From IMG/VR virus record IMGVR_UViG_3300009514_000642, positions 1-47,866 of that record: a stretch of 47,866 nucleotides of DNA. One strand, given 5' to 3'. Positions 5,315 through 44,270 of the stretch are shown here, in pieces. The first letter of the stretch is position 1. Each line of letters begins with the position of its first letter. The notes beneath the pieces were generated by a model. It was not told the origin of the DNA, made no database searches, and saw only the letters and a program-made list of their open reading frames with translations. Source of the DNA: a virus. A program made the translations under genes and the position numbers.

Positions 5315-5908
5315 ATGAGTTGTAGTGGTCGTCTCACACCCGAAATTCAATTTTCATCCTGGAATAATCAGGAGACGGCTGATCCCAGCGGTACTCGCCA
5401 CCTACCCTCTGGCGCGTTTGCTTATGATAAATTAATTGGCCTAGGGTGTGGTTTATCTATACCATTTCGTGGTCTGAGACTAGATCTTAGTGCAAATCAG
5501 CCATTTATAGGATCTAATGTTGCCGTAGTCAATATCAGCGTACCTAATTTTGTAGATGCTCAAGCTTCCGGTATGACGTCTTTTAATAATATGAGGATGT
5601 GGATTCCGGCAGGATCAGGTACAGTTTTAGATCTTCCAGGTTCACACTTACAATTCCTGGTAAGCGGACTCTGGGTGCCCAATTTAAGCTTTCCTAGCGG
5701 CGCAGGTCAACAATTTCCCACTACTTTACCAGAAACTGCTAATTTATTTCGTGCTGATGGTTTTAATGGTCTGAATGGTTATAATGATAATAATGTCTCC
5801 CAATTCATTTATATGAGATTATTTCTAGATGCTAATTTTCCTATAGGTACATTTGGAATTTGTGGCAGTGGCATCTTGAGACCGAGATTAACTTTTGACT
5901 TCTATTAA
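5315..5908 (+). CDS. Small virion protein, paralogue B of a tandem pair
   Basis: The 197-residue product begins two bases after the previous stop. It keeps the DPSGTRH motif at about residue 23 and the C-terminal pattern VSQFIYMRLF then GTFGICGSG and RPRLTFDFY, matching the upstream gene at equivalent positions. The middle differs in length and sequence, which fits an old duplication with diverged specificity. It is the last gene before a 90-base leader with regulatory features. No catalytic motif was seen; probably structural. Confidence 0.65.
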   Translation: MSCSGRLTPEIQFSSWNNQETADPSGTRHLPSGAFAYDKLIGLGCGLSIPFRGLRLDLSANQPFIGSNVAVVNISVPNFVDAQASGMTSFNNMRMWIPAGSGTVLDLPGSHLQFLVSGLWVPNLSFPSGAGQQFPTTLPETANLFRADGFNGLNGYNDNNVSQFIYMRLFLDANFPIGTFGICGSGILRPRLTFDFY

Positions 5909-5998: not shown

Positions 5999-6184
5999 AT
6001 GGCAACTATTAATGCTGCTTCAAGTAACAACCGAGTAAACCGCATGAGAATGAGCAAGTCTCGCACGTTGCTCTATTACACAGATCGTCGTATTTCTGAT
6101 GGTGCGTTTATCGGTGTTGCTACGCTTGTTAGCCGTCTAGCGGTTACTGAGTTTACAACTACCAATCCCTTTACCATCGCGTAA
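5999..6184 (+). CDS. Highly expressed 61-residue basic protein of the structural region
   Basis: The 61-residue product is basic in its first half (RVNRMRMSKSR) with Ser/Thr-rich flanks. It has no signal peptide, membrane helix or cysteine. Unlike nearly all its neighbours, which overlap, it stands alone: a 90-base leader with a candidate promoter and hairpins, a perfect Shine-Dalgarno sequence and a strong intrinsic terminator 26 bases after its stop. That arrangement suggests an abundant, separately regulated transcript, for example a small decoration, cement or scaffold-like virion protein. This is inference; no family was recognised. Confidence 0.7.
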   Translation: MATINAASSNNRVNRMRMSKSRTLLYYTDRRISDGAFIGVATLVSRLAVTEFTTTNPFTIA

Positions 6185-18403: not shown

Positions 18404-19445
18404 GCGTCAAACAGCAGAAGCATTGGATGATGGCGAATATGATGAGAAAGAATTACACAAAATATTTATGCGATCACTCAAAAAAGAATTCAAGGATACT
18501 CAGTTCTCTACAGGAGATAAGTTGAAACTTCCAAGTGGTAATTCAACTGGTTCATTAAGTTTAGATATAAATCTTCAAATTCCAATTTATGAGGGGTCTA
18601 TTGTTGAAATTTATAGTAGTGAAGGTGCTGGTAAAACCACTTTAGTTCTTTCGATTATGGCGGAAGGAGCTAAGCGAGGTAAGAAGCTTTTATTCTTAGA
18701 CCAAGAACAAACACTACAGGCAACTTTAGTGGACTCATTTCCCACTTTACGTGATCCTGGTGTTTTAGAAGTTATGACAACACCCACAGGGGAAGAGGCG
18801 CTACGTATTGCAGAGCTATGGGCATTACAATATCCTGGGTCCATTATTGCTATAGATTCTGTAGATGCTCTAATACCTGATATGACAGCTACAAAAGAAA
18901 TTGGTGAGACCAATGTTGGAACATTGCCAAAACTAATGAGCGCTGGTTGTCGTAAATTAACAGCAGCAGTTGGTAAATCAGATAGTACGATTATTTTTAT
19001 TAATCAAATACGCACCAAGATTGGTACATATGGTGATCCTAATACTACGTCTGGTGGTCGAGCCTTACCGTTTTATGCTAGTCAACGCATACAGCTTAAA
19101 GATATTGCCGCTAAGACACGTATAATGGACGTAGACGGTAATCAAATCGGCCACATAGTACGTTATAAGATCATAAAAAACAAAGTTGCACCTCCATTTA
19201 TAGAAGGCGAATTTCCTTTGATATACGGCAAGGGTATCGATCAAGCTCAAGAATTGACTAATCTAGCTGTTGATTTAGGAATTTTTATCAAAGAAGGTAC
19301 AAAAATCTTATTACCTAATGAAAAGGGTGAGATTAAAAAGCGATCACCAAAAACTGTGACAGATATGTTAAAAGCAGATCCTAAATTTTTTCAGTCCACG
19401 TTAGACGAACTAAAAGCCTTATATCCTGAGACTTTTCATGAGTAA
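18396..19445 (+). CDS. recA: RecA-type recombinase
   Basis: RecA-family strand-exchange ATPase, which forms filaments on single-stranded DNA during repair and replication restart. Walker A is SSEGAGKTT at residues 74-82, Walker B is IIAID at 150-154, and the L2 region carries NQIRTKIG followed by TTSGGRALPFYASQR at about 203-231, closely matching bacterial RecA rather than T4 UvsX. Length is 349, as usual for RecA. The C-terminus continues with the helical, lysine-rich region typical of RecA. The gene overlaps its upstream neighbour by 8 bases and the nuclease gene downstream by 8 bases, forming a tight recombination unit. Confidence 0.92.
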   Translation: MARRQTAEALDDGEYDEKELHKIFMRSLKKEFKDTQFSTGDKLKLPSGNSTGSLSLDINLQIPIYEGSIVEIYSSEGAGKTTLVLSIMAEGAKRGKKLLFLDQEQTLQATLVDSFPTLRDPGVLEVMTTPTGEEALRIAELWALQYPGSIIAIDSVDALIPDMTATKEIGETNVGTLPKLMSAGCRKLTAAVGKSDSTIIFINQIRTKIGTYGDPNTTSGGRALPFYASQRIQLKDIAAKTRIMDVDGNQIGHIVRYKIIKNKVAPPFIEGEFPLIYGKGIDQAQELTNLAVDLGIFIKEGTKILLPNEKGEIKKRSPKTVTDMLKADPKFFQSTLDELKALYPETFHE

Positions 19446-19782
19446 AGGAGCTAAAGAATTATTAGAAATTGTGCAAAAAATTTTTCCCAACCAAAGGATT
19501 GAGTTAGAATATAATATTGCAGCAAGGGGTGCCCTATTTTTAGATTTATATTTACCACGCCTAAAGCTTGCCTTCGAATTTGACGGCGATCAACATGGCA
19601 GATTTGTAGAGCATTTTCATAAAGATAGACAGGGATTTATAAATGCACGCAAACGTGATTTTGAAAAAGAAAGACTATGCGAGGAACAAGGAATTACTTT
19701 AATAAGGATAAAATACGGAGAAGAGATGACGCTGATCACCGTTAGTAAGAAAATTGATGAAGCATTGCGGAGATCTGAATAA
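19438..19782 (+). CDS. Vsr-like PD-(D/E)XK nuclease
   Basis: The small 114-residue protein has F-E-F-D-G-D-Q-H-G at about residues 46-54, then K/R-rich and D-F-E-K-E-R-L-C-E-E-Q-G-I-T-L-I-R-I further on. This is the layout of Vsr/DUF559-type endonucleases: an acidic metal site, then a helix, then the buried strand of a restriction-like fold. Substrate is unknown. Location between a RecA and a replicative helicase gene, overlapping both, points to processing of branched or recombination DNA (a resolvase-like role) rather than mismatch repair. No DNA-binding accessory domain is present. Family placement is fairly firm; the role is inferred. Confidence 0.7.
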   Translation: MSKGAKELLEIVQKIFPNQRIELEYNIAARGALFLDLYLPRLKLAFEFDGDQHGRFVEHFHKDRQGFINARKRDFEKERLCEEQGITLIRIKYGEEMTLITVSKKIDEALRRSE

Positions 19783-21245: not shown

Positions 21246-22296
21246 AGGGATTCGTAAATTAGCGCATAAAAACATGCGTTTGATTATGAAAAAGCTTAAT
21301 TTCCAAGGTGAGGATTTGGGTAGCCGTCTTGTAGGCTGTTGCCCAATCTCTCACACGGATGGCATGACACCCAACGATAATCGTAATGCATTTAGTTGGG
21401 ATTTTGATCGACAAATGTGGCAATGTTTTAGTAATCAATGTCATCAAACATATGGTTCTGATATTTTTGCACTCATTCGTAGCGTTCAAAAATGCTCTTT
21501 TCAAGAAGCGATTTTATGGATTCTAGGTGTAATTAATCAAGATATTAACGAGGTAAAGGAGCTAGATAGCACCGAAACCAAACATATGGAACAGGTCATC
21601 CGCAAGCGGTCCCAGCTTGTCAAACATAAGCGTATGGAAAAAGAACTTATGTGCCACCTACAACCAAGTACATATTTCCTTGATCGTGGTTTCTCTAGTG
21701 AGGTCATTAAGGAGTTTGGTTGTGGTGGTGAATGGCACAAAGCTAGAACCTATGGCGATGGTAGAGTTATTATACCGGTTTATGATCCGATAGATGGCTA
21801 CCTTATCGCCTTTACCTGTCGCTTGTTGGATGACAGCCTTATAAGTCAAACACACCCCAAGTGGTGTCATACCCTAAATTTTGCAGCACTGCGTAAAAAG
21901 TCTTCAGAACGAACAGATGAAGAACGTTTTTATGCTTCTTCTGTATTGTTTAATTTACATCGTGCTAAAAAGTATATGGGTGAATCCAAAACAATTATTC
22001 TAGTAGAAGGTCCAGGAGATGTTATGCGTATGTGGGAGGCTGGGATTAAAAATGTAGTTGCAGTATTGGGTACTGGATTTGGTCAACATCATCGTACACT
22101 TTTACATAAAGTAGGGTGTCGTAGAATAGTTAGTGTTTTAGACGAAGATCATGCGGGACAAAGAGGAACTCGCCTAGTGGAAAAAATATGTAAAAACTAT
22201 TTTGATTTTCATTGTGTTACTTTATTAGCAGGTAAAGACCCTGGTGATTACGATATAGCGCAATTACGTTTGACTTTTAAGGAATACTTAAGATGA
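21211..22296 (+). CDS. dnaG: DnaG-type DNA primase with zinc finger and Toprim domain
   Basis: The 361-residue protein is shorter than bacterial DnaG. An N-terminal zinc-binding module has C43, C44, H48, C72 and C77/H78. The Toprim catalytic centre shows LVEGPGD with Glu266, then VLDEDHAGQRG (D311, D313) and GKDPGD. The C-terminal helicase-binding domain of bacterial primase is absent, as often in phages. Start: ATG at 21211 and the next codon is also ATG, with only weak purines upstream, so initiation may depend on the helicase gene that it overlaps by 35 bases. It would synthesise primers for the DnaE-type polymerase encoded downstream. Confidence 0.85.
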   Translation: MMTQILTKNKIEGIRKLAHKNMRLIMKKLNFQGEDLGSRLVGCCPISHTDGMTPNDNRNAFSWDFDRQMWQCFSNQCHQTYGSDIFALIRSVQKCSFQEAILWILGVINQDINEVKELDSTETKHMEQVIRKRSQLVKHKRMEKELMCHLQPSTYFLDRGFSSEVIKEFGCGGEWHKARTYGDGRVIIPVYDPIDGYLIAFTCRLLDDSLISQTHPKWCHTLNFAALRKKSSERTDEERFYASSVLFNLHRAKKYMGESKTIILVEGPGDVMRMWEAGIKNVVAVLGTGFGQHHRTLLHKVGCRRIVSVLDEDHAGQRGTRLVEKICKNYFDFHCVTLLAGKDPGDYDIAQLRLTFKEYLR

Positions 22297-22802
22297 AGAT
22301 TTATCTTTCAAGTCCGTACGAGCACAATAGAGCAGACGTCTCATGGAAAACCAAAGCTCTTGACTGGTTATTGAACGTAGATAAACGTATAGAAATTATT
22401 GATCCATGTCCCGATAGCTGTGATGAAACTAATTTCATCAATAAGATAAAAGAAGAGAAGGATTGGCTAGGCTTCTATTCTTTTTGTGCCAATATTGTTG
22501 AAGGCGACTTAGCAATGTTGAATAGCTGTGATGGTATGATTGCATATCTACCATATGGCGCGGTTACATTTGGTACTACTCATGAAATAATTCATGCTTT
22601 ACAGAACCAAATTCCCATAGTGTTAGTAATGCCCGAAGGTATTGACAAGGTACCGCATTGGTTATGGGGAATTTTAGGTCCGAATCGTATTTTTGATAAT
22701 CTAAAATTAGCAGCACGAACATTGGTTGATAGAATTCAAGTAGTGAGAGGAGAAAAACTCAATGACTCGGTTTATTACCCTGGCAGGGAAGAAGCATTGT
22801 GA
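22293..22802 (+). CDS. Nucleoside 2-deoxyribosyltransferase-like protein
   Basis: The 169-residue product begins KIYLSSPYE, the first strand typical of the deoxyribosyltransferase fold. It has the later signature CDGMIAYLPYG then GTTHEI, where Glu98 would be the catalytic nucleophile in this family. Known members exchange nucleobases or hydrolyse nucleosides and nucleotides, and phages use them in nucleotide recycling. It lies directly before a dNMP kinase gene, consistent with that role. The last 41 bases overlap a relic of the kinase start in another frame, so its C-terminus (after about residue 155) may have been changed by the event that created the relic. Related folds such as cytokinin-LOG-like proteins are an alternative. 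Confidence 0.7.
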   Translation: MKIYLSSPYEHNRADVSWKTKALDWLLNVDKRIEIIDPCPDSCDETNFINKIKEEKDWLGFYSFCANIVEGDLAMLNSCDGMIAYLPYGAVTFGTTHEIIHALQNQIPIVLVMPEGIDKVPHWLWGILGPNRIFDNLKLAARTLVDRIQVVRGEKLNDSVYYPGREEAL

Positions 22803-22806
22803 TTAA
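22762..22806 (+). pseudogene. Ghost of a dNMP kinase start (15 codons)
   Basis: ATG at 22762 opens a frame reading MTRFITLAGKKHCD then stop, with AGGAG about 10 bases upstream. The first 11 residues are identical to those of the intact kinase starting at 22862, yet 7 of the 11 codons differ, all synonymously, with the upstream copy using GC-richer codons (CGG, ACC, CTG, GGG, AAG). It overlaps the end of the deoxyribosyltransferase-like gene in a different frame. It looks like the 5' end of a diverged kinase allele left at a recombination junction. Confidence 0.75.
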
Positions 22807-22861
22807 TATAAGTCAACAATATATTTAGATCGAAAAAAGAAATTTGTTGAGGAAAATATTT

Positions 22862-23578
22862 ATGACTAGATTTATTACATTAGCTGGCAAAAAACAGTCG
22901 GGTAAAGATACCAGCGCCATATTCATTCGCCAACTTCTTATTAGCGATAGTTTTCAATATCATATAGATGATAAAGGTGAAATACAAATCATCAATTCTG
23001 TAGGTCATGGTCCTTTAGACCCATTGGGGGATACAAGAATACATATTGTCCATTTTGCCGATGCATTGAAACAAGCTTGTCATACCATCTTTGGTATTCC
23101 TTTAAAAGACATGGCGACCGAAGAAGGTAAACAGAAGTTAACTCATATTTTATGGCCTAATAATGATGGTTTTAATTGTGGATGGTTTCCACACCCTGGT
23201 ATTGAATATGTTTCGTCTACTCAACAGCCACCATATATGACCGTACGTGAAGTTTTACAGTTTGTTGGTACTGACTTGTTTCGTGAACAAATGTATGCCA
23301 ATGTCTGGGTTGAATCGATTTTCCGTTATCCATGGGAAGACCGTGACATTGTTATCATTGCAGATGCACGCTTTCCTAATGAAGTAGAATTTGCGTGCCA
23401 ACATGGTCTTCTTATTAAGATTGAACGTGACACTAATCTTAAGAGCGATAGTCATAAATCCGAAACTGCATTGGATGATTATAAAGGTTATGATCACATA
23501 GTGCAAAATAATAGTAGTCTAGATGATCTACGAGATGCGTTATATACAATACTTCAAATTCATGGTTTAATAGTATGA
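22862..23578 (+). CDS. Deoxynucleoside monophosphate kinase, T4 gp1-like
   Basis: The 238-residue P-loop kinase phosphorylates dNMPs to dNDPs for phage DNA synthesis. The P-loop is AGKKQSGKDTS at residues 8-18, followed by HFADALKQA and the LQFVGTDLFRE region, then IIADARFPNEVEFA, which resembles T4 gp1. The ATG at 22862 was preferred over a TTG six codons upstream because it follows GAGG by nine bases and matches the start of the upstream ghost copy. A 59-base gap precedes it, unusual in this operon. The last bases overlap the nuclease gene. Downstream residues near SHKSETALDDY are polar as in family members. Confidence 0.85.
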   Translation: MTRFITLAGKKQSGKDTSAIFIRQLLISDSFQYHIDDKGEIQIINSVGHGPLDPLGDTRIHIVHFADALKQACHTIFGIPLKDMATEEGKQKLTHILWPNNDGFNCGWFPHPGIEYVSSTQQPPYMTVREVLQFVGTDLFREQMYANVWVESIFRYPWEDRDIVIIADARFPNEVEFACQHGLLIKIERDTNLKSDSHKSETALDDYKGYDHIVQNNSSLDDLRDALYTILQIHGLIV

Positions 23579-30767: not shown

Positions 30768-33700
30768 ATGGGGACCGGCATGAGTCAAGAAAAGAATAAT
30801 AAAAAGCGTATTTTGTTTATTGGTGAAGCATCATGTCTTAATACTGGTTTTTCAACCTATTATCGTGAATTACTTCCAAGACTTGCCGCTATGGGTAAGT
30901 ATGAGATTGCTGAATTTGCATCTTATATTACAGATGATGATCCACGAGCCCAGGCATTTATTCAAGGACGATGGAAATTTTATGGTAATGCTCCACAAAC
31001 TTCAGAAGAAGAAGCCCTATTCAATCAGCCAGATCCTGCACAACCGGGACAAAATACTAATCAGTTTGGTAGGTGGAAGTTTGAACATGTACTCGCAGAT
31101 TTTCAGCCTGATATAGTTTGCTTACCATCGGGCGAGCCTATTATGACATCTAATGGATATAAGAATATTGAAGATGTTCAGGTAGGTGATTTAGTAATGA
31201 CTCACCAAGGTAGGTTTCGTTCCGTTTTAGAAACCATGAATCGAAAGCACGATGGTGATTTGTATTCTATATATTTTAATGGTGGATCAGAGCCACTGAG
31301 GGTGACAAGTAATCACCCTGTGTTGGTATATCGAAAGCGCAAGCAGACTAATCAAAAGAAAAGTATTGGAGCAATTTATGCTGGTATTGATGCTCAATTT
31401 GTGAGAGCTGATCAAATTCAAGAGGGTGATTTGGTTGTAGTGCCCCGACTGCAAGATACTCAGGCTTCTTATCTTACAATAGATATCACATCTTACCTAG
31501 ATGACTCTGTGAATTATGAAATTATAGGTAATCAAATTCATACCAAACCTCACGGTCATGTTGTTCCACGCTATATTGAGCTTACCCCAGATTTGGCAAG
31601 ATTGGTTGGGTATTTTATTGCGGATGGGTCAAGCTCGATAAGAGAAGTTTGTACCACGTTTAGTAGTAATGAAATAAGATTTGTAGATGATGTAAAAATA
31701 ATTTTAGAATCTATATTTAAAATAAACACCACAGTTTTTGATTGTAGCCCTAATAAACAATCTTTTAATAACAGATTATGTAGTACGATAATTGCAAACT
31801 TTTTTACAAATTGGATTGGTCAGCGAGAGAATAAAAATATTCCTTATGAGTTTTGGCAATCTCCTTTAGATGTTCGTCAACAATTAATGCGTGGCTTGGT
31901 TCGTGGTGATGGAGATTATGCCAAAAATTCAGTAAGACTCACTACTGTTGTTCGAAATCTAGCCTATTCTTATAGGATGTTAGCAATCTCTTTAGGAATT
32001 CCAGTAAGTATTCAATTTAATGAAACACAAGGTAAAAATGGTGCCTACGTTATTTGTGGATATGGTGAATCCGCTCGATCTCTTCATCTTCTAGTTGATA
32101 AATTTGAAGGACAAGAGCCACCGGGTTTAGTTGCTACGGCAGTTCGTCGTGGTTGTTCTACACATATGGTGAACAATCAAATGTTGGCCACTGTCAAGAA
32201 GATTGAAGTCAACAAATATTGTGGCAAGGTTTATAACTTTGAAGTAGAAGAAGATCATTCGTACGTAAGTGTAGTGTCTACACACAATTGCGACATAAGG
32301 GATTGGTGGATGATTGCCTTTGAGGAACGCAGCCCATTCCGCAAATATTTTAAGTGGGTCATTATGCCTACTGTAGATTCAATTCCTCAAAAAGAGGAAT
32401 GGATTCAAACTTATATAGGTGCTAATTATGTTATGGCCTATTCTGATTTTGGTATTGATTCTTTGCGTCGTTCTTCACCTAAATTAGAAGTAAGAATGGA
32501 TCCACCGGGCAAGCGAGGTTTCGTTGGCATTGACAAAATGCCAGGTAAGTTACACCCCGTACCATTACGTCCTGGTGTAGATTTAAAAACTTTTCATCCA
32601 CGTAATGATGAAGAGAAAAAAGCACTTAAACAAAAATGGGGTATTAAACCAGACATTCCTATTATTTTACTAGTGCAACGTAACCAAGCCAGAAAACGTA
32701 TTTCTGAAGTGATTACGGCATTTTCAATGATGAAATCGCTTTATCCTGATAATGAAATGGTACAAAAGTCCATTTTGCTTATGCATACTGCATGGCCTGA
32801 TAATGTCATGTCTGTTGATTTTCCACGTGCAGTGGCACGTATTCAAACTGGTTGGCACGGTGCTCCACACCCTCGTAAGGGTATTATACGAGAAGTAAAT
32901 TCTACTTTTATATGTCATAATACACAATGTGGCGATGTCTTTATTGCACCATCTATTAATTTGCGCCAATATCATGTCATTATATGCCCCAAGTGTGGAC
33001 AACAAAGTGCTCGTACACCAACCACGGGTTTTGGTATTACCAGAGAGCAACTATCAGAAGTTTTTGGTATGGCAGACATTATGGTACAAATGAGTATTGC
33101 AGAAGGTTGTGGTATGCCCGTGCAAGAAGCCAAGGCGTGTGGCGTTCCTGTATTAGTGACAGACTATTCTGCCCTTAGTGAAAAAGGCAAGATACCTAAT
33201 TATGAGCATGTTGATCAAAAGAATTATTCTGTACATCAGGGTGGCGAGGTTATAAAATTAGCCTATCTTTATGAAGAACCAGAAACCACATGTTGGCGCG
33301 CTCATACATCTATAGAAGATTGTTGTCACAAGATGGCTGCGCTTATTAGTGATCGCGAACGTCTAGCTAAGATGAGTAAAGCAGCCCGAGAATGTACTGA
33401 AGAGAATTATAATTGGGACAAAAACTTTAAAGAGTGGGAGTTTATTTTAGACCATATTACACCATTAGACAGAAATACTACATGGGACAAACCAATAGAA
33501 TTAATTGAAATTGATAATACAATGCCTGCCCCAGAATGTACCGATGAAGATTTTGTTATTTGGTGTTATACTAAATTATTAGGCTATAAAGGAGAGCATG
33601 ATATTGATGAAGATGGACGTAAAAATTGGTTATCTAAATTACAACTTGAGGCCAGTCGCGGTATTCCAATTCAGCAAACAAGACAAGAAATTGCCAATTA

Positions 33701-33809
33701 TTTCCGCCAACAAGCCGAGGCACAAAATGTAGTAGAGCGTCTGCGCACTAATACAAAATTAACTAATACATCAGAAGAAGTTGATATTCTTGAGGCGGTG
33801 ATATTATAA
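30768..33809 (+). CDS. GT4-type glycosyltransferase interrupted by an intein
   Basis: The 1013-residue precursor loses a 390-residue intein (residues 118-507) to give a 623-residue enzyme. The exteins form a GT-B glycosyltransferase: N-terminal Rossmann start RILFIGEASCLNTGF, CDIRDWW at the splice junction, then the nucleotide-sugar motif AEGCGMPVQEAKACG at about 773-787 of the precursor. A Cys4 zinc-ribbon insertion lies in the C-terminal lobe (CHNTQC and CPKC, about 718-747). The last 90 residues contain a YTKLLGY...DGRKNWLSKL pattern reminiscent of DUF4214. An ATG at 30780, five bases after GGGGA, may be the real start. It heads the glycan operon; sugar donor and acceptor are unknown. Confidence 0.85.
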   Translation: MGTGMSQEKNNKKRILFIGEASCLNTGFSTYYRELLPRLAAMGKYEIAEFASYITDDDPRAQAFIQGRWKFYGNAPQTSEEEALFNQPDPAQPGQNTNQFGRWKFEHVLADFQPDIVCLPSGEPIMTSNGYKNIEDVQVGDLVMTHQGRFRSVLETMNRKHDGDLYSIYFNGGSEPLRVTSNHPVLVYRKRKQTNQKKSIGAIYAGIDAQFVRADQIQEGDLVVVPRLQDTQASYLTIDITSYLDDSVNYEIIGNQIHTKPHGHVVPRYIELTPDLARLVGYFIADGSSSIREVCTTFSSNEIRFVDDVKIILESIFKINTTVFDCSPNKQSFNNRLCSTIIANFFTNWIGQRENKNIPYEFWQSPLDVRQQLMRGLVRGDGDYAKNSVRLTTVVRNLAYSYRMLAISLGIPVSIQFNETQGKNGAYVICGYGESARSLHLLVDKFEGQEPPGLVATAVRRGCSTHMVNNQMLATVKKIEVNKYCGKVYNFEVEEDHSYVSVVSTHNCDIRDWWMIAFEERSPFRKYFKWVIMPTVDSIPQKEEWIQTYIGANYVMAYSDFGIDSLRRSSPKLEVRMDPPGKRGFVGIDKMPGKLHPVPLRPGVDLKTFHPRNDEEKKALKQKWGIKPDIPIILLVQRNQARKRISEVITAFSMMKSLYPDNEMVQKSILLMHTAWPDNVMSVDFPRAVARIQTGWHGAPHPRKGIIREVNSTFICHNTQCGDVFIAPSINLRQYHVIICPKCGQQSARTPTTGFGITREQLSEVFGMADIMVQMSIAEGCGMPVQEAKACGVPVLVTDYSALSEKGKIPNYEHVDQKNYSVHQGGEVIKLAYLYEEPETTCWRAHTSIEDCCHKMAALISDRERLAKMSKAARECTEENYNWDKNFKEWEFILDHITPLDRNTTWDKPIELIEIDNTMPAPECTDEDFVIWCYTKLLGYKGEHDIDEDGRKNWLSKLQLEASRGIPIQQTRQEIANYFRQQAEAQNVVERLRTNTKLTNTSEEVDILEAVIL
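31119..32288 (+). mobile_element. Intein with LAGLIDADG endonuclease in the glycosyltransferase
   Basis: The intein is 390 residues. Its first residue is Cys (CLPSGEPIMTS, block A). Block B is VTSNHPVLV, and the splicing C-terminus is VEEDHSYVSV then THN before an extein Cys. Two LAGLIDADG-type helices, LARLVGYFIADG and LMRGLVRGDGD, show an intact homing endonuclease between the splicing blocks. The frame is continuous, so splicing and homing activity are both probably preserved. The insertion point lies between PDIV and CDIRDWW, a conserved-looking motif of the host protein. Confidence 0.93.
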
Positions 33810-39983: not shown

Positions 39984-40264
39984 CGAGTTTTACTTTCAAT
40001 AAGCGAGAACCAACCAGCTTCATCAGTTGGGCATATCTTCCAACAAGTCGCTTCTTTGTCACTTGCCTTATAACCGGGACTACAGTCTACTCGTCGCGCT
40101 CTGGGCGTGAAACATTTTCTTTTGCCGCCCGTGGAGTGTACGGAACACATGTCTTGGTAAACAAAAAATATCATATTCGTACACCGTCCGATATCCGCGT
40201 TGAACGTAATGGCGAGACAATTCCGTTGGATCGCTTGGCAAAAATTGTTGGTGTACAATTATGA
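39980..40264 (+). CDS. Unknown 94-aa protein left of the homing endonuclease
   Basis: The 94-residue, beta-rich basic protein (REPTSFISWAYLP, GTTVYSSRSGRETF, HVLVNKKYHIRTP) has no recognised motif. One stretch (40081-40140) is 53% GC by hand count, higher than its surroundings. The stop TGA overlaps the ATG of the GIY-YIG gene (ATGA). Before endonuclease insertion it would have overlapped the downstream glycosyltransferase in the same way. Function unknown. Confidence 0.55.
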   Translation: MTSFTFNKREPTSFISWAYLPTSRFFVTCLITGTTVYSSRSGRETFSFAARGVYGTHVLVNKKYHIRTPSDIRVERNGETIPLDRLAKIVGVQL

Positions 40265-40863
40265 AGTTTGGTGTTTATAGAATTAGAAATCAAGTTAACG
40301 GAAAGTGTTATATAGGCAGTACGTCATCTTGTGGTTTTGATAAACGATTTCGTAAGCATCGCAATGATCTAAAAGCTCAACGTCATCATTCTCGTCATCT
40401 ACAGAATGCCTGGAATAAGTATAATTTTAATACCTTTGTCTTTGAAATTTTACTTTATTGTGATCCAGAGAATTGCCTGCTGTATGAGCAAGTCGCCCTA
40501 GATTGTTTTAAACCAGAATATAATGTTTCACCCACCGCTGGTAGTAGTTTAGGTATCAAACGTTCTGCAAAATCAATAGCTAAGCGACGCGCTAGTATGC
40601 CAGATCAATCAGGTGAGAATAACCCATTCTATGGTAAAAAGCATTCTCAGGAATGGATAGAACAAAATTTAATAGGAGAAAATAATCCTGGCGCGGGATT
40701 ATTTGGCGAATTGAACCCGAATTCAAAACTTACGAATGATCAAAGGCGTGAGATATATCGTCTTGGGAAAATGGGATTATCTCAACGGAAACGTGCCGAG
40801 GCGTTTGGAGTATCTAAATGTCCAATTGCAAGAATCGATAAAGATGATAGGTGGGCGTTATGA
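40261..40863 (+). mobile_element. Free-standing GIY-YIG homing endonuclease gene (coding sequence)
   Basis: The 200-residue protein has GVYRIRN at residues 4-10 and YIGS at 17-20 (the GIY and YIG motifs), the central R/H segment (RFRKHRND), and catalytic Glu near 76 in LYEQVALDCFKPEYN. Downstream lie GENNPFYGKKHS (NUMOD3-like) and a C-terminal helix-turn-helix (about 157-190) for DNA recognition. This matches SegA-type mobile endonucleases of phages. The gene sits between exact TTATGA repeats (40259-40264 and 40858-40863) that preserve ATGA coupling on both sides. Removal of 40261-40859 would restore a normal overlap, so it looks like a recent, seamless insertion. Confidence 0.9.
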
Positions 40864-41774: not shown

Positions 41775-42037
41775 TGACAATTGACAAATACGAAGTAGAG
41801 TTGCGTGAGATGGAAGAACAAGATCCTCCACGTGCCCCATTATATGGTGTTTTATTTCTTGATTATCGTAATCGTTCACGTCGTATTTTATTACATGATC
41901 GTCGTGATGTATTAAATTTAATGAGAGCATTAGAAGATTGGAAATTAAGTAATGGCGCAGTTATGTGTTATTGGGAAGACGAATCTGTATTTGATCATTG
42001 GAAAGAAGGCGAAAAGGCATTAATACAATATGATTAA
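41774..42037 (+). CDS. Unknown 87-aa charged protein
   Basis: The 87-residue protein starts at the TAATG overlap; an in-frame ATG nine codons earlier lies inside the previous gene. It is rich in Asp, Glu and Arg (RNRSRRILLHDRRDV, EDWKLSNG, DHWKEGEK), with tryptophans near the C-terminus. No motif was recognised. It overlaps the intein-bearing aminotransferase gene by eight bases. Confidence 0.55.
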   Translation: MTIDKYEVELREMEEQDPPRAPLYGVLFLDYRNRSRRILLHDRRDVLNLMRALEDWKLSNGAVMCYWEDESVFDHWKEGEKALIQYD

Positions 42038-44270
42038 TTTATTTAAAGTACGCATGTCTGATGATGCAGGTTGGGCTGTTGACAAGGTTCTTCGCAGTGG
42101 CTATATTGGAGAAGGACCAAAGGTTAAAGAGTTTGAAAAACAACTAGAAGTAATATTTGGGTGCGAGGCAAGCAAGTATGTATTAGCCACCAATAGTGCG
42201 ACATCCGCCGAACATCTTGCTTGGCATACATTAAAACAACAGGGTCATCTTGAAGATGGTGATGAAGTATTGGCCACGCCATTAACTTGCGTGTATGGCA
42301 AACAGTCTGTTTTATTAGCAGACGGGTCTTCTAAAACGATTGCAGAATTGGTGAACACAAAATATAATAGCGAGGTTGTTGCTTATAATCCTCAAACTCA
42401 ACAATTTGAAAATAAAAAAGTCATCGGTTGGTATAAATCACCTATTCAAAATCGTTACTGGATAAAAGTATCTTTTGAAAATGCCGGCTTATCTAATATT
42501 GGCGAAAAGCGCGGTACTTGGTTAACGAATGATCATAAGGTTTTAACTACTGATGGTTATAAGCGGGCAGACGAATTACAATGTAGTGATCAGTTGATTA
42601 CTAATTATCTTCAACCAAACCCATATCAACGAGAATTAATCCTTGGCACAATGTTGGGTGATGCTAGTATACAATTAGGTAAACGTGGGCATGGCAGATT
42701 ATGTATTGGTCATACCGATAAAAATATAGATTATGTTAACTTGAAGAAATCGGCTTTGGGGCAACTATCTAAAAAAACACAAGCCCGTCCCGCATATGGT
42801 AATACCAAAGCATCATCAAGATTTCAATCGTGTAGTTCGCCAGTTTTCACTCAATTACATCGACAATGGTATACTTCATCTACTAAGATAGTTTCGCGAG
42901 AATTATGTCAACAATATTTATCACCACTAGCGTTAGCAGTATGGTATATGGATGATGGTTATCTTAATAGACAATATCGTGGTGCTGTTATAATTTGTTC
43001 AGAATCATTCACGAAAGAAGAGAATGAGTTTTTAGTTGATCTATTAAAACAAAAATTTGATATCAAAGCATCGTTACGAAAAACTCATGGTGGTTCTGGT
43101 TGGGGAATTTATATTGGCAATGGTAATGATGGTCATGATTCTGCTATCAAGTTTTTAACCATAGTTGCCCCTTATATTGTACCATCTATGCGGTATAAGC
43201 TACTAGATGATATTGAAAAAAGATACCCTTTTCAAGCTAAATTGTATGATTTAGGGCATGCCATTCCTTATATTGATCATGTGGTTTTAATAGAAGGTCA
43301 GCCCAAGTGCCCGGAATCTCATCTAAAAAGTGTATATTGTATTGATGTGCAAGATCATCATAATTTTGTTACTTCCTCGATTATAATTCATAATTGTACC
43401 GCAACCAATTTTCCCATCGTCGCTAATGGCTTGCGCATCAAATGGGTAGATATAGATCCAGAGACACTCAATATGGATCTAGATGATCTGGCGTGCAAAA
43501 TAACCCCAACCACTAAAGCAGTTATGGCAATGCATTGGGGTGGCTATCCCATGGATATGCAGCGCCTCCATCAGATTTGTAATAACGCCTTGGCGCGATT
43601 TGGATTTCATCCTTATATTATTCAGGATTGTGCTCATGCATTAGGAAGTACGTTTCAAGGTCATTCGTTAATTCCCTGGGCTGATTTTTCAACATTTAGT
43701 TTTCAGGCTATTAAGCATCTTACTTGTGGAGACGGTGGGGCGCTTGTTACATTAAATGATAAAATGTACGATCTAAGCAGACTCCTGCGTTGGTATGGCA
43801 TTGATCGCGAGGGTGATCGTAACGATTTCAGATGTGAAGCTAATATTGCTCATTGGGGCTACAAGTTTCATATGAATGATATTGCGGCGACTATTGGACT
43901 CGCCAATCTTTCTCTTCTAGATGATACAATTCTGAAACATCAGAGTAATGGGCAGTATTATGATCATGCTCTACAAAATATTCCTGGGGTAACATTACTA
44001 ACTCGACATGATGATAGAGAGTCTTCGTATTGGCTTTATACTTTACGTGTTGAAGACCGTGGTGGATTTATGAAGATGATGAAGGAAAAAGGAATTGAAG
44101 TTAGTAGAGTACATGAACGGAATGATAAACATACTTGTATGAAAGAGTTTAGAGTTGCGCTCCCGACACTCGACGTTATAGTCAATGATATGATTTGTAT
44201 TCCTGTTGGTTGGTGGGTTAACGACGAAGACAGTGAATATATTGTTGATTGCATTAAAGGGGGTTGGTAA
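42030..44270 (+). CDS. DegT/DnrJ/EryC1-type sugar aminotransferase interrupted by an intein
   Basis: The 746-residue precursor yields a 377-residue PLP enzyme after removal of a 369-residue intein. The exteins show the DegT fold: SGYIGEGPKVKEFE near 23-36, ATNSATSAEHLAWH, the join at TPLT|CTATNFPIV, QDCAHALGS (PLP-binding Asp), and FSFQAIKHLTCGDGG with the Schiff-base Lys562 (193 in the mature enzyme). Such enzymes add an amino group to keto-sugar nucleotides, so the glycan probably contains an amino sugar. The C-terminal VPVGWWV-like segment (IPVGWWVND) is usual. TAATG links it to the methyltransferase that follows. Confidence 0.9.
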   Translation: MINLFKVRMSDDAGWAVDKVLRSGYIGEGPKVKEFEKQLEVIFGCEASKYVLATNSATSAEHLAWHTLKQQGHLEDGDEVLATPLTCVYGKQSVLLADGSSKTIAELVNTKYNSEVVAYNPQTQQFENKKVIGWYKSPIQNRYWIKVSFENAGLSNIGEKRGTWLTNDHKVLTTDGYKRADELQCSDQLITNYLQPNPYQRELILGTMLGDASIQLGKRGHGRLCIGHTDKNIDYVNLKKSALGQLSKKTQARPAYGNTKASSRFQSCSSPVFTQLHRQWYTSSTKIVSRELCQQYLSPLALAVWYMDDGYLNRQYRGAVIICSESFTKEENEFLVDLLKQKFDIKASLRKTHGGSGWGIYIGNGNDGHDSAIKFLTIVAPYIVPSMRYKLLDDIEKRYPFQAKLYDLGHAIPYIDHVVLIEGQPKCPESHLKSVYCIDVQDHHNFVTSSIIIHNCTATNFPIVANGLRIKWVDIDPETLNMDLDDLACKITPTTKAVMAMHWGGYPMDMQRLHQICNNALARFGFHPYIIQDCAHALGSTFQGHSLIPWADFSTFSFQAIKHLTCGDGGALVTLNDKMYDLSRLLRWYGIDREGDRNDFRCEANIAHWGYKFHMNDIAATIGLANLSLLDDTILKHQSNGQYYDHALQNIPGVTLLTRHDDRESSYWLYTLRVEDRGGFMKMMKEKGIEVSRVHERNDKHTCMKEFRVALPTLDVIVNDMICIPVGWWVNDEDSEYIVDCIKGGW
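42288..43394 (+). mobile_element. Second intein, in the sugar aminotransferase
   Basis: The intein is 369 residues. It starts with Cys (CVYGKQSVLLADGS, block A), contains TWLTNDHKVLT (block B with T-x-x-H), and ends CIDVQDHHNFVTS then HN before an extein Cys. Two endonuclease helices, LILGTMLGDAS and LALAVWYMDDGYL, mark a LAGLIDADG enzyme of a different subgroup from the intein in the glycosyltransferase. The two inteins show no obvious close similarity, so they were probably acquired independently. The open frame suggests both splicing and homing are intact. Confidence 0.93.

Follow-up and report, generated by a model that had tools for sequence, protein, structure and literature searches.

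The doubled start of the dNMP kinase gene in the window (the whole 47,866-nucleotide stretch of viral DNA that was analysed) is very probably explained by the insertion of a homing endonuclease gene accompanied by a replacement gene start, followed by near-complete deletion of the endonuclease. The functional kinase gene lies on the + strand at 22862..23578 (Pfam DNMK, E 6e-18; phrog_139, E 8e-40). Its first 11 residues, MTRFITLAGKK, are encoded twice, at 22762-22794 (ATGACTCGGTTTATTACCCTGGCAGGGAAGAAG), referred to here as the ghost, and at 22862-22894 (ATGACTAGATTTATTACATTAGCTGGCAAAAAA), with the two starts 100 bases apart. All 11 residues and 4 of the 11 codons are identical, the other seven (codons 3, 6, 7, 8, 9, 10 and 11) differing synonymously, exactly as the original prediction had described, and the nine base differences between the copies are all silent in the kinase frame. 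The ghost opens a mini-ORF of 14 codons that runs from 22762 to 22806; its upstream neighbour, the ORF at 22293-22802, reaches 41 bases into it, and this overlap and the intervening 55 bases (22807-22861) are likewise as had been reported. The doubling is not due to chance, because the next best ungapped match to MTRFITLAGKK in the six frames of the whole window is only 7/11 and out of frame (it lies at 32221 inside an intein-bearing gene and was rejected as another copy). When gene starts were scanned for upstream ghosts, the best score (BLOSUM62) was 54 for the window kinase and 36 for that of a related contig, L001, while none of 113 other gene starts scored above 26.

Three states of this locus were observed directly in three related phages. 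In the empty state, seen in L033, the deoxyribosyltransferase-like (DRT) gene overlaps the kinase directly and the kinase ATG is at the position of the ghost ATG of the window. It had been suggested that the ancestral order was a kinase overlapping the DRT-like gene and that phages of this kind should be sought, and L033 has that order. In the occupied state, seen in L001, a 215-aa endonuclease ORF lies between a ghost start (5473) and a second kinase start (6153); the doubled sequence reads MTQFITLSGRE at 5473, within the DRT overlap, and MAKFITLSGKKQ at 6153, where it opens the kinase, and the L001 ghost has changed residues too, with 7 of the first 12 identical to the functional start. The window represents the scar state, in which 22799-22861 aligns in register with both ends of the L001 endonuclease gene. 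The DRT-like gene of the window (22293..22802, + strand) is 68% identical to that of L001 and 58% to that of L033; its product has no Pfam match and its L001 homologue gives a weak match to Nuc_deoxyrib_tr (E 1.1e-4, below cutoff). At the 3' end of this gene, the last ~13 codons lie across the ghost kinase start, and the stop codon shares the bases RTGA with the endonuclease start. The sequence AGAGGAG (22746..22752, + strand), which would be the ancestral kinase ribosome-binding site and also codes for R-G-E of the DRT-like protein, stands at an equal distance before the ATG of the L001 ghost, the live start of L033 and the window ghost.

L001, the one viral contig recovered when the DRT-like protein was used as query, carries the same two genes on either side of a third ORF, and L033 was recovered by a kinase-profile search (two-sequence alignment, 79 loci). 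A DNA-level search of annotated phages and a kinase search with the window sequence alone gave no match, a DRT-profile search and a wider kinase profile yielded no further DRT-kinase loci, so that each state is represented by one phage, and a pattern search for the junction of endonuclease end and kinase start found L001 only. The genome collection yielded no close relative of the window. A convincing ghost start was absent from all other scanned kinase loci and from the other scanned loci of the L001 endonuclease's family; a candidate in L014 with a score of 28 was rejected as it is not at a start codon. In other relatives the kinase is immediately preceded by a HAD-hydrolase gene or by the primase; in L025, L030, L032, L034 and L035 it is a HAD-hydrolase gene, instead of the DRT-like gene, that stands there, with an 8-base overlap into the kinase start. 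The branching of the window and L001 is poorly resolved in both primase and kinase trees, so one insertion followed by loss looks the same as two arrivals, and vertical loss the same as horizontal arrival.

The order in which the two copies arose can be read from the coding constraints on the overlap. The ghost (22762..22794, + strand), whose position equals the live kinase start of L033, is offset from the DRT reading frame by the same amount in all three phages, and in the overlap kinase third positions are DRT first positions. In the DRT frame the nine differences between ghost and functional copy are at first and second codon positions, and with the functional codons in the overlap DRT translation would end after Asp. 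Since none of these differences alters the kinase and the second copy would interrupt the DRT frame, the ghost is judged to be the native, dually coding start, comprising kinase codons 1-11, and the second copy the newcomer. When DRT codons were resampled synonymously, on average 4.6 of the 11 kinase residues survived, and the complete set was retained in none of 20,000 trials; thus the ghost still bears the imprint of a former kinase start. Its codons are atypical, with a GC3 of 64% (CGG/CTG/GGG) against 26% for the window, because the ghost also encodes the DRT tail in another frame. Similarity to the L033 start is 22/33 for the ghost and 21/33 for the functional copy in the window, and 23/33 and 18/33, respectively, in L001; the window ghost shares 22/33 bases with L033 as against 24/33 with its own functional copy, a point against the proposed history, and in position it agrees with L033 exactly.

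The ORF that occupies L001 5513-6160 (215 codons) is predicted from Pfam, PHROGs, motifs and fold to be a LAGLIDADG homing endonuclease. Pfam LAGLIDADG_3 and LAGLIDADG_1 both score above cutoff and the ORF matches phrog_4645 (endonuclease); two LAGLIDADG-type motifs, FILADG and MIDGDG, are conserved, with D35, D126 and D128 invariant among 12 sequences. The AlphaFold model has a pLDDT of 89.8 and its best PDB matches are I-Tsp061I, I-AniI, I-DmoI and other LAGLIDADG nucleases, and among its relatives from annotated phages many carry the name of a homing or intron-encoded endonuclease (e.g. I-MsaII, DOD homing endonuclease).

That the intervening DNA of the window is what remains of such a gene is highly likely on the alignment evidence and is the firmest claim of the analysis. 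The original prediction had proposed that these bases might mark a recombination junction, which is borne out, but it missed their identity as the two ends of a LAGLIDADG endonuclease gene. The putative 3' remnant (22818..22869, + strand) matches L001 at 40 of 52 bases, ungapped and in register, reading IYLDRKKKFVEENIYD against IYLDRKKKLVEENIDG in L001, with the stop in codons 2-3 of the functional kinase. The putative 5' remnant (22799..22819, + strand; GTGATTAATATAAGTCAACAA, VINISQQ) matches the L001 endonuclease start at 15 of 21 bases, a weak match taken alone, which counts through its register and the RTGA overlap with the DRT stop that it shares with L001. Local alignment of the window remnant with L001 gave a score of 26, compared with a mean of 11.2 (sd 1.6, maximum 22) for 2000 shuffles. 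There are 63 nt before the kinase start in the window and 640 nt in L001, so that ~577 bp are gone and the reading frame is broken, and no intact endonuclease ORF is present at 22799-22869.

An important consideration is where the second start came from. The functional starts of the window and L001 have 28/33 bases and 9/10 third positions in common, compared with 24/33 bases and 3/10 third positions between functional start and ghost in the window and 21/33 and 4/10 in L001; the downstream copy is the one that shares its silent sites with the element-bearing phage, although it was the upstream copy that had been proposed to be foreign. At shared residues 7 of 8 codons of the functional starts are identical, compared with an expectation of 3.6 (P ~0.015 when matched for amino acid, 0.05 relative to the remainder of the kinase), a signal that rests on ~10 codons. 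The endonuclease stop is built from codons 2-3 of the functional kinase (GACTAG and GGCTAA, in the window and L001), and ghost codons 2-3 would not yield it. In both phages the native end stands upstream as a ghost and the replacement start is joined to the kinase downstream. Because the functional starts resemble each other more than their own ghosts, it is likely that the start at 22862..22894 (+ strand) arrived with the endonuclease as one unit joined at the codon 11/12 boundary. This boundary lies within the conserved P-loop sequence GKKQSGKD and, on balance, it would also be the place at which the endonuclease cuts the kinase. Both the cutting of the kinase site and the arrival of the start with the endonuclease, as opposed to its duplication at insertion and subsequent drift, are what we infer from these comparisons.

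The history that would follow begins with an ancestral dNMP kinase that started at the ghost ATG (22762), inside the 3' end of the DRT-like gene. A gene for a LAGLIDADG homing endonuclease would then have entered between codons 11 and 12, presumably at or beside its own cut site, bringing its own ribosome-binding site and differently coded kinase codons 1-11. As the insert carried a copy of the start, the split kinase would have been restored with no residue lost; the amputated native start, which continues to code for the C-terminal residues of the DRT-like protein, would for that reason have been kept as a ghost. L001 would have kept the element intact, whereas in the window lineage an internal frameshifting deletion of ~577 bp would have left only the 5' and 3' ends of the endonuclease. 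A more elaborate version, offered tentatively, is that of a mobile element equipped to mend the damage it does: a free-standing LAGLIDADG endonuclease with the dNMP kinase P-loop codons as its target would have a recoded, immediately usable kinase start aboard, and the recoding would protect the new allele from cleavage and prevent recombination with the ghost.

A variant of this history differs only in the source of the second copy, which would be a target-site duplication: codons 1-11 of the resident kinase would have been doubled at insertion, the copies being initially identical, and the downstream copy would have drifted silently once free of the DRT overlap. Such drift could reach 3/10 third positions, silent sites between the window and L001 being near saturation (~50% codon identity at shared residues), and the downstream codons fit the AT-rich usage of the window itself. 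The likeness of the two functional starts, which exceeds that of either to its own ghost, tells against duplication, though a doubling in a common ancestor followed by little change could produce that likeness too, and the variant is best regarded as possible but rather unlikely. It is far harder to sustain the original prediction that the upstream fragment is foreign, a piece of a diverged relative's kinase left by illegitimate recombination. In its favour, the ghost codons are atypical for the window, but their bias is accounted for by the correspondence of kinase third to DRT first positions, and the ghost encodes the DRT tail at what L033, which strongly disfavours this reading, shows to be the native position; it is the downstream copy that would stop the DRT frame. 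A foreign origin is accordingly very improbable.

Insertion with a replacement start, then deletion, also has to be set against readings in which the doubling is functional. The 14-codon mini-ORF at 22762 might control kinase translation as a leader peptide or regulatory element, and with AGAGGAG and the ATG intact in both the window and L001 it may well be translated. Both features are, however, also explained by DRT coding and ancestry, the same ATG is the real kinase start in L033, the residues differ between the window (MTRFITLAGKK) and L001 (MTQFITLSGRE) and there is no Rfam match, so that a regulatory role is improbable. The original prediction had regarded conservation of both copies elsewhere, as a leader peptide or regulatory RNA, as evidence against it; both copies do recur, in L001, but as the flanks of an endonuclease rather than as a leader peptide. 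Least credible of all is the joining of the ghost to the downstream coding sequence by a group I intron, an intein or ribosome bypass. Homing endonucleases of the L001 family are often found in introns, as in relatives from staphylococcal phages, and T4 gene 60 is bypassed (PMC5009743), but the downstream copy is equipped with an ATG and a ribosome-binding site of its own, and joining would repeat residues. No match to group I intron catalytic RNA was found with Rfam at gathering thresholds in either the window or L001.

The insertion of an endonuclease with a replacement gene end has documented parallels. In fungal mitochondria endonuclease ORFs bring diverged, largely synonymous C-terminal gene ends and leave the native end stranded, examples being atp6 in Allomyces and atp6, atp9, cox2 and nad3 in Glomus, with LAGLIDADG or GIY-YIG ORFs (PMC3630166). 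The present case resembles these hybrids in its diverged, mostly synonymous replacement end and in the native end beyond the insert, but it is found in a phage, concerns the first 11 codons and has a native start that overlaps another gene; a stage in which the endonuclease has been deleted is, moreover, caught in the window. In T4-like phages the free-standing Seg and Mob endonucleases are of the GIY-YIG or HNH type, and mobE in Aeh1 nrdA and mobA in the T4 topoisomerase gene split the host gene into two polypeptides (PMC2988022). The L001 gene is likewise a free-standing endonuclease gene beside or inside genes of nucleotide metabolism or replication and overlapping its neighbours, but it is of the LAGLIDADG type and, unlike those intragenic insertions, leaves a restored kinase. 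Insertion of mobA at T4 gene 60 is associated with a 50-nt bypass (PMC5009743); in both systems a phage gene works despite an endonuclease insertion, in T4 by translational bypassing and here, it would seem, by means of a replacement start. The I-MsaII/DOD endonucleases of staphylococcal phages (recA-associated) are of the same LAGLIDADG family as that of L001, at ~30% identity, and several are annotated as intron-encoded, whereas no intron was found in the window or L001. The principle is thus already known from fungal mitochondrial C-terminal ends, and the phage 5'-end case appears new in that no phage endonuclease described as replacing the start of a gene was found in the literature searched, the search being incomplete. 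It would offer a selfish nuclease a route into a conserved phage gene besides introns and inteins, namely to supply the severed start anew, and a replacement start would unlock the gene overlap and release the start of the kinase from its dual-coding constraint. Past endonuclease insertions in phage genomes could be searched for by synonymous ghost starts, as a simple kind of fossil, and the existence of three states in three phages makes the model directly testable.

Other mobile elements are present in both genomes. In the window a glycosyltransferase ORF (30768-33809) contains an intein with a LAGLIDADG domain (Hint/intein splicing domain at residues ~117-502; C-terminal ..HSYVSVVSTHNC), a DegT/DnrJ/EryC1 aminotransferase ORF (42030-44270) is split by an intein with a LAGLIDADG_2 domain, and a SegE-like GIY-YIG endonuclease with a NUMOD3 motif lies at 40261-40863. 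A second LAGLIDADG gene of L001 (8995-9612) sits immediately upstream of DnaE, whose start it overlaps (TTAATGTCTGA); no ghost of that start was detectable beside it. A 114-aa ORF of the window (19438-19782) matches the C-terminal part of a 261-aa L001 protein (1618-2403), in which an HNH endonuclease domain is joined in front of the matching part, possibly another endonuclease insertion at a gene start.
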